From Oscillospiraceae bacterium (GTDB lineage Bacteria; Bacillota; Clostridia; Oscillospirales; CAG-272): a DNA stretch of 43,337 nt. This document shows positions 1-565 of the stretch, piece after piece. The number at the start of each line of letters is the position of its first letter. Within the stretch, counting starts at the first letter, position 1. The stretch spans positions 1-43,337 of the forward strand of contig SVQL01000004.1 of the NCBI GenBank assembly GCA_015065365.1, in the 5' to 3' direction. The notes under the pieces are model-generated. The model was given only the letters and a program-made list of their open reading frames with translations, did not search any database and was not told where the DNA came from. The position numbers and the translations under genes were made by a program.

Positions 1-63
1 GTTTCCCGGCGTAAGCTCAATACCGGTAATGTCCATGATCTTTTCTTGAATGTTCTTGTTCAT
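1..63 (-). CDS. 5' end of a truncated CDS, N-terminus MNKNIQEKIMDITGIELTPGN, function unknown
   Basis: ATG at 63 on minus strand preceded by a GGGGG Shine-Dalgarno-like stretch; frame open to the window edge. Confidence 0.55.
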   Translation of the reverse strand, partial: MNKNIQEKIMDITGIELTPGN

Positions 64-82
64 ATATCCCCCATCAGCATAT

Positions 83-111
83 AAAAAGGTGCGCAACCGA
101 AGCTACGCACC
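83..111 (-). terminator. Rho-independent terminator with UUCG loop
   Basis: Minus strand GGTGCGTAGC-TTCG-GTTGCGCACC followed by TTTTT. Confidence 0.8.
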
Positions 112-293
112 GAAAAACGCCAACTCCAATTGTCGCCAAACAAAACCAACTTCACGGATAAACACCACATGCAAGTCAGCGGAGCAAGCGTTTTTGCCTG
201 ATTTCATCTGACTCACAAAAATAGGTGTAGGAACAAGACCCCCTACAAAAATAGGGCGTTTATCCTTGAAAGTTATTTGGTTTTGTTTGGCAC
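83..293 (-). ncRNA. structured RNA (standalone ncRNA or terminator-controlled leader), class not identified
   Basis: Closing stem 128-149 / 277-297 (21 bp, one-nt bulge), inner stem around 155-165 / 253-266 (ggataaacgcc/ggtgtttatcc), internal hairpins, own promoter, Rho-independent terminator at the 3' end. Confidence 0.7.
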
Positions 294-297
294 AATT

Positions 298-326
298 ATT
301 ATATCACATTTTTTGCAATTTGTAAA
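298..326 (-). promoter_or_regulatory. sigma-A type promoter for the structured RNA
   Basis: Minus strand TTTACA (321-326), 17-nt spacer, TATAAT (298-303); predicted start near 291-293, at the start of the closing stem. Confidence 0.75.
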
Positions 327-372
327 TATATTTGGTGAAATTTATAGAAATTACCTTCCGGGTGGTAGAAAA

Positions 373-498
373 AGCCTCCCTTGTGTAAAGGGAGGTGGCA
401 CGGCTTGCCGTGACGGAGGGATTGTAAAAGATTAGATTTTTCATTGGAACAATCCCTCAGCCGCCTGCGGCGTCAGCTCCCTTTACACAAGGGAGCCT
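373..498. repeat. palindromic intergenic repeat element (MITE-like)
   Basis: Long imperfect inverted repeat: gcctcccttgtgtaaagggagg...cggagggattgt / acaatccctcag...ctccctttacacaagggagcc. Confidence 0.65.
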
Positions 499-565
499 TA
501 TTTGTTGTTCACCTATGGCTCATCAATTTTCCTGACAAGCACTGCATTTGTGTCCACAAACGCAA

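Follow-up and report, generated by a model that had tools for sequence, protein, structure and literature searches.

The GEMM (c-di-GMP-I) and ydaO (c-di-AMP) riboswitches were both orphans once, because the genes they control did not reveal their ligands (PMC7266159). In the fluoride (crcB) and ZTP (pfl) riboswitches the terminator overlaps the aptamer (PMC2864571), and in the fluoride riboswitch a pseudoknotted aptamer is coupled to the folding of the terminator (PMC11077080). Guanidine-IV is likewise a transcriptional riboswitch that works via a terminator (PMC11611296, PMC7736828). The raiA motif (ModT RNA) has been reported to be an abundant trans-acting RNA (PMC11706538).

The RNA in this report lies on the minus strand near one end of a 43,337-nt stretch of an Oscillospiraceae bacterium genome (the window; positions 1 to 43,337 of contig SVQL01000004.1). 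It shares with the c-di-GMP-I and ydaO riboswitches a placement in the leaders of many unrelated genes and the presence of several copies per genome, but its fold is different: a 15-bp pseudoknot between loop and linker masks the antiterminator strand. The overlap of the putative aptamer with the terminator recalls the fluoride and ZTP riboswitches, and the coupling of a pseudoknot to the terminator recalls the former in particular. In those two classes, however, a bound ligand should impede the terminator and so increase expression, whereas the pseudoknot here takes up the antiterminator strand, which should favor the terminator. The likeness to guanidine-IV is one of terminator-based control, the gene set being different, and the likeness to the raiA motif is that both are structured RNAs of Bacillota; unlike raiA, the RNA described here is multi-copy and sits before gene starts. 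No Rfam model of any of these classes matches it. We read it as a cis-acting conditional transcription terminator, to which we give a probability of about 0.75 on the strength of the sequence comparisons below.

The minus strand from 297 to 83 folds at -92 kcal/mol (z -7.8), and none of 200 shuffled sequences equaled it. The plus strand of the leader region also folds well (z -6.1), as long stems should. The first-pass annotation had described a TTTACA-17-TATAAT promoter, a 21-bp closing stem, a UUCG-capped terminator, and a start codon with a good ribosome binding site just past the T tract, and we found the promoter, the terminator, and the translation start as it described them. The closing stem does reach 21 bp in the single-sequence fold, but only its inner ~13 bp (291-279 with 147-135) are kept in relatives; the outer part, AAUUGU/ACAAUU, shares bases with the antiterminator. 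P1 in the following list is supported by comparison, and P2 to P4 come from single-sequence folds.

298-326, minus strand: promoter, with TTTACA at 326-321, a 17-nt spacer, the extended -10 TGATATAAT (TGA), and TATAAT at 303-298 (11 of 12 matches)
83-297, minus strand: whole leader RNA, ~215 nt if terminated (fold z -7.8 and homologues)
279-291, minus strand: closing stem P1, 5' strand, GCCAAACAAAACC (compensatory changes)
135-147, minus strand: closing stem P1, 3' strand, GGTTTTGTTTGGC (compensatory changes)
257-265, minus strand: P2, 5' strand, GGATAAACG (single-sequence fold)
156-164, minus strand: P2, 3' strand, TGTTTATCC (single-sequence fold)
226-247, minus strand: P3 hairpin (single-sequence fold)
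208-216, minus strand: P4, 5' strand, of the arm bearing the apical loop (single-sequence fold)
171-179, minus strand: P4, 3' strand (single-sequence fold)
181-195, minus strand: apical pseudoknot strand, AAAAACGCTTGCTCC, predicted partner of the linker (95.1% of pairs formed, 87 copies)
113-127, minus strand: linker, GGAGTTGGCGTTTTT, predicted to form the pseudoknot with the apical loop or, by its 5' half, the antiterminator with the terminator (covariation)
122-132, minus strand: predicted antiterminator, 5' strand, CAATTGGAGTT (covariation)
94-104, minus strand: 3' strand of the predicted antiterminator, AGCTTCGGTTG, doubling as the terminator upper stem and loop (covariation)
88-111, minus strand: intrinsic terminator hairpin, GGTGCGTAGC-UUCG-GTTGCGCACC (-15.4 kcal/mol)
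83-87, minus strand: terminator U tract, U5 (sequence)
68-72, minus strand: ribosome binding site, GGGGG (sequence)
61-63, minus strand: start codon, ATG, 19 nt past the U tract (sequence)
1-63, minus strand: putatively controlled gene, encoding a small Cys-rich protein, MNKNIQEKIMDITGIELTPGN..., cut by the contig end (paralogue on contig C23)

Farther upstream, the window contains two inverted copies of CTCCCTTGTGTAAAGGGAG (376-394 on the plus strand and 477-495 on the minus strand), for which the chance expectation is none. The pair sits inside a palindromic dispersed repeat (window 360-500), and repeats like it adjoin copies of the RNA on contigs C23, C1, and C108.

Paralogues of the RNA were found in its own genome (1.75 Mb, 129 contigs) by DNA search, and a covariance model built on the 3' module (R1, with E-values that are to be taken as rough) found nine copies there. 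We collected 221 distinct copies in total, and this number, like the nine copies in one genome, places the RNA beyond chance. The RNA was found by BLAST in 42 of 59 near genomes. R1 matched 100 of the 295 genomes in an order-level sample, representing 62 of 149 genera, and 88 of 391 genomes in a class-level sample carry the RNA, with up to 13 copies per genome. A phylum-level draw of 399 genomes returned our own genome as the sole match and none outside the class, so R1 appears to give few false matches. The genomes are drafts, mostly metagenome-assembled. A pattern scan of named genomes gave at least 118 loci; those listed are all assigned to Clostridia, Clostridiales, Oscillospiraceae, Ruminococcus, Tyzzerella, or Firmicutes (uncultured), and, among the matches listed, most are from ruminant and rabbit gut. 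One copy (L259; MT835845.1, ~2070-2233) precedes a lipoprotein gene on a human faecal scaffold labeled "Bacteriophage sp." and unverified.

The copies are of two types, long (n=169) and short (n=40), and the left-hand hairpin, P3, is predicted in 160/169 of the long type and 4/40 of the short type. P3 of the long type, for instance in L105 and L029, often has the form GGGTAT...ATACC followed by a T run and resembles an intrinsic terminator or pause site. Tandem copies less than 600 nt apart make up 13 pairs (L141, L024, L203, L095, and others), with four copies in a row at L141. There is a clear -10 element in 203 of 213 copies, 176 of them with TGn ahead of it, and the distance from the end of the -10 to P1 is 4 to 6 nt in 187 of the 213. 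Given this near-fixed spacing, the RNA should begin at P1 or close to it. RNAalifold applied to all long or all short copies recovered little beyond P1, because the middle of the RNA does not align.

The RNA occupies the position of a leader, 5' of a gene and on the same strand. For 210 copies the downstream sequence was long enough to be judged, and 182 of these are followed by a ribosome binding site and open reading frame, at a median distance of 22.5 nt and in 151 cases no farther than 60 nt; most copies lie 10 to 40 nt ahead of the start codon. The other 28 copies have no open reading frame by the criteria used, and several of them hold short or broken ones. Gene starts were found no more than 60 nt downstream of 69/94 family terminators (73%), compared to 23/225 other terminators on the same contigs (10%). 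Window base 1 is also the end of the contig, which leaves only 21 codons of the window gene visible; its paralogue on contig C23 (L235) is a full 68-residue protein. The small Cys-rich family to which they belong, CLGNGEQGFECCCDECDYFLLCFPEFD, has 24 matches in 30 genomes of the genus; the RNA is upstream of 20, and the remaining 4 are partial or stop-bearing. A Cys-rich relative in L019 had no Pfam or NCBIfam match.

The proteins encoded downstream of the RNA form 110 clusters by BLAST. Among 100 of these proteins, mostly one per cluster, we found 60 Pfam families, none dominant, including zinc ribbons, SHOCT, AMP-binding ligases, BspA-type LRR, M23 peptidases, and DUF6809. Pfam and NCBIfam searches of the 100 showed no common pathway, and for that reason the ligand is not readable from the targets. 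By crude regular-expression and hydropathy criteria, lipobox-like N termini occur in 29% of the targets and in 9% of other open reading frames of related contigs (odds ratio 4.2, p ~1e-9), and hydrophobic segments occur in 56% and 31%, respectively. The nine copies in our own genome precede four Cys-rich genes, three lipoprotein genes, and one SLOG-like gene, with one copy lacking a gene. The best reading of these sequences is that the RNAs control genes that are unrelated to one another but include lipoproteins and secreted proteins more often than other genes do. Proteins that by eye resemble the nucleotide-binding SLOG fold recur among the targets (L260, L028, L036, L041).

Covariation in homologous regions, which the first-pass annotation had suggested looking for, was found for P1 by a tree-aware test, and changes on both sides were found in the pseudoknot and antiterminator. 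The tree-aware test used 140 copies, many of them chosen with a fixed linker, and three P1 pairs lie at its floor; one P1 pair is CG in 51 copies, TA in 46, AT in 30, and GC in 7, and another is CG in 79, TA in 31, and GC in 27. Significance in these 140 copies was confined to P1 pairs and did not extend to those of the pseudoknot or antiterminator.

The linker, which joins P1 to the terminator, is GGAGTTTGCGTTTTT in most copies and complements the apical loop, AAAAACGCAAATTCC. In 87 copies that were not pattern-chosen, 95.1% of the 15 pseudoknot pairs are formed, and 8 of the pairs show changes on both sides, as in L032 (AAAAAGTACAAGTTCC with GGGGCTTGTACTTTTT); none of 500 shuffles was as good, and slid versions were 33 to 59% paired. 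The same linker, with the CAAT that precedes it, also complements the upper half of the terminator, CTTCGGTTG. This antiterminator has 11 pairs, 93.7% formed and 8 with changes on both sides, against 0/500 shuffles as good and 17 to 55% pairing in slid versions; support of this kind, for both pairings, is from shuffles and slid controls and does not fully correct for relatedness. Examples are L037 (CAATTGGAG with CTTCAATTG) and L191 (CTATCGGAG with CTTCGGTAG), and in our own genome a G-to-A change in the linker is matched by a C-to-U change in the terminator on C83 (L015) and C73 (L260).

Because linker columns 112-117 serve in both, the pseudoknot and antiterminator are mutually exclusive. 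Two conserved folds that exclude each other, one of which would free the terminator, are what characterizes an attenuation leader. The median energies lie close together, at -14 kcal/mol for the terminator, -15.5 for the antiterminator, and -17 for the pseudoknot. The pairing of loop and linker is within one molecule: for seven copies of our own genome, the mean energy was -17.2 kcal/mol with loop and linker from the same copy and -12.6 with those from different copies. Swapping linkers among the whole copy set gave 28.7 for own linkers versus 27.2, a comparison of low power because the linkers are so alike.

These features suggest the following scheme. Transcription would start at or beside P1, and the body would fold into P1/P2, with P3 as a side hairpin and P4 as the arm that ends in the conserved apical loop. 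The emerging linker would pair with the apical loop to give the pseudoknot, leaving the terminator hairpin free to form, and transcription would stop after ~215 nt (OFF). If the pseudoknot were prevented, the linker would instead capture the terminator's upper half as it is being made, and the antiterminator so formed would let the gene be read (ON). The choice between pseudoknot and antiterminator would thus control read-through. The default state is probably OFF, since the pseudoknot has the chance to form before the antiterminator and is no less stable. The signal that biases the choice would most likely be a small molecule that reports on the state of the whole cell, for example a second messenger or an envelope-stress signal; we favor this over a pathway metabolite because the broad, envelope-weighted set of unrelated targets recalls, by analogy, the second-messenger riboswitches. 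The RNA may then work like a riboswitch or an attenuator, and since strict membership among riboswitches requires ligand binding, it is best labeled a candidate orphan riboswitch, to whose 5' end a promoter is fused.

For the conditional terminator we give a small-molecule ligand roughly even odds. The same terminator could respond instead to a protein or other trans-acting factor acting on the apical loop or linker, in the manner of BglG/LicT or HutP. A dedicated regulator would suit a signal shared by many unrelated targets, some positions of the apical strand are invariant, and the present results fit protein and metabolite alike. Most known protein-bound antiterminator hairpins, however, are simpler than a P1-P4 body with a pseudoknot, and the large body here makes a protein effector somewhat unlikely in our judgment. 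The standalone noncoding RNA of the first-pass annotation would be a discrete trans-acting small RNA gene, with its own promoter, a constitutive terminator, and a downstream gene that is a mere neighbor. Promoters at a fixed distance from P1 are more usual in small RNA genes than in riboswitches. The constant position of the -10 agrees with such a gene, as do the strength of the terminator, the presence of both elements, and the copies with no open reading frame behind them, such as that on contig C63 of our own genome. Yet an antiterminator conserved on the terminator's own bases has no evident role if termination is constitutive, the placement before gene starts far exceeds that of control terminators, and the Cys-rich gene is nearly always found behind the RNA, whereas a discrete gene should have no consistent downstream gene. 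We consider this explanation improbable, but the RNA may also have a role that is partly independent of the gene. The other reading put forward at first pass, in which the RNA is the leader of the gene at 1-63 and controls it through the terminator, is strongly supported by the placement before genes, the antiterminator, and the gene linkage.

A dispersed repeat or promoter-bearing mobile unit, spreading without regulatory function, might account for as many as 13 copies in a genome, for the tandem arrays, and for the repeats beside several copies. Such spread is contradicted by both-sided changes in three separate pairings; moreover, no link to a transposase was seen, the exact core pattern had no match in 2.9 million viral contigs, and the RNA was not found in a plasmid collection, so we think this very improbable. 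Least credible is that the RNA belongs, as a divergent form, to a class already in Rfam (the raiA motif, 6S RNA, T-box, or another), several of which it resembles in size, taxonomic range, and folded body. Rfam 15, searched at gathering and permissive thresholds over the window and ~30 homologous loci, gave nothing at the RNA: the window had no gathering match, 20 loci had no match at the RNA even with E-values of up to 1 allowed, and the scan of 12 homologous loci picked up nothing but tRNAs and a single L21 leader, all elsewhere than the RNA. The raiA motif, named at first pass as the class to try, went unmatched at the window RNA and the homologous copies scanned, as did 6S, ROOL, T-box, and the other classes, and so did the known c-di-GMP and c-di-AMP riboswitch models in the scans of the window and homologous loci. 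Weak matches to SNORD47, RAGATH-30, and EF0408_EF0409 were far below gathering scores and were rejected. The papers found on candidate structured RNAs, in the main text searched, do not describe the RNA, which may be an unnamed entry in the surveys' supplementary tables.

Returning to a cis-acting conditional terminator, we tentatively propose, at somewhat less than even odds, that a widespread, undescribed riboswitch class for a global signal, possibly a novel nucleotide second messenger, controls the lipoprotein and secreted repertoire of uncultured gut Clostridia. If this is right, the search for the ligand would be directly open to standard riboswitch assays. The RNA would then amount to a control system present in multiple copies across much of the gut and rumen Clostridia, missing both from Rfam 15 and from the papers searched. 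It would also define a regulon made up of secreted and small proteins that otherwise lack annotation, and so give a handle on their function.
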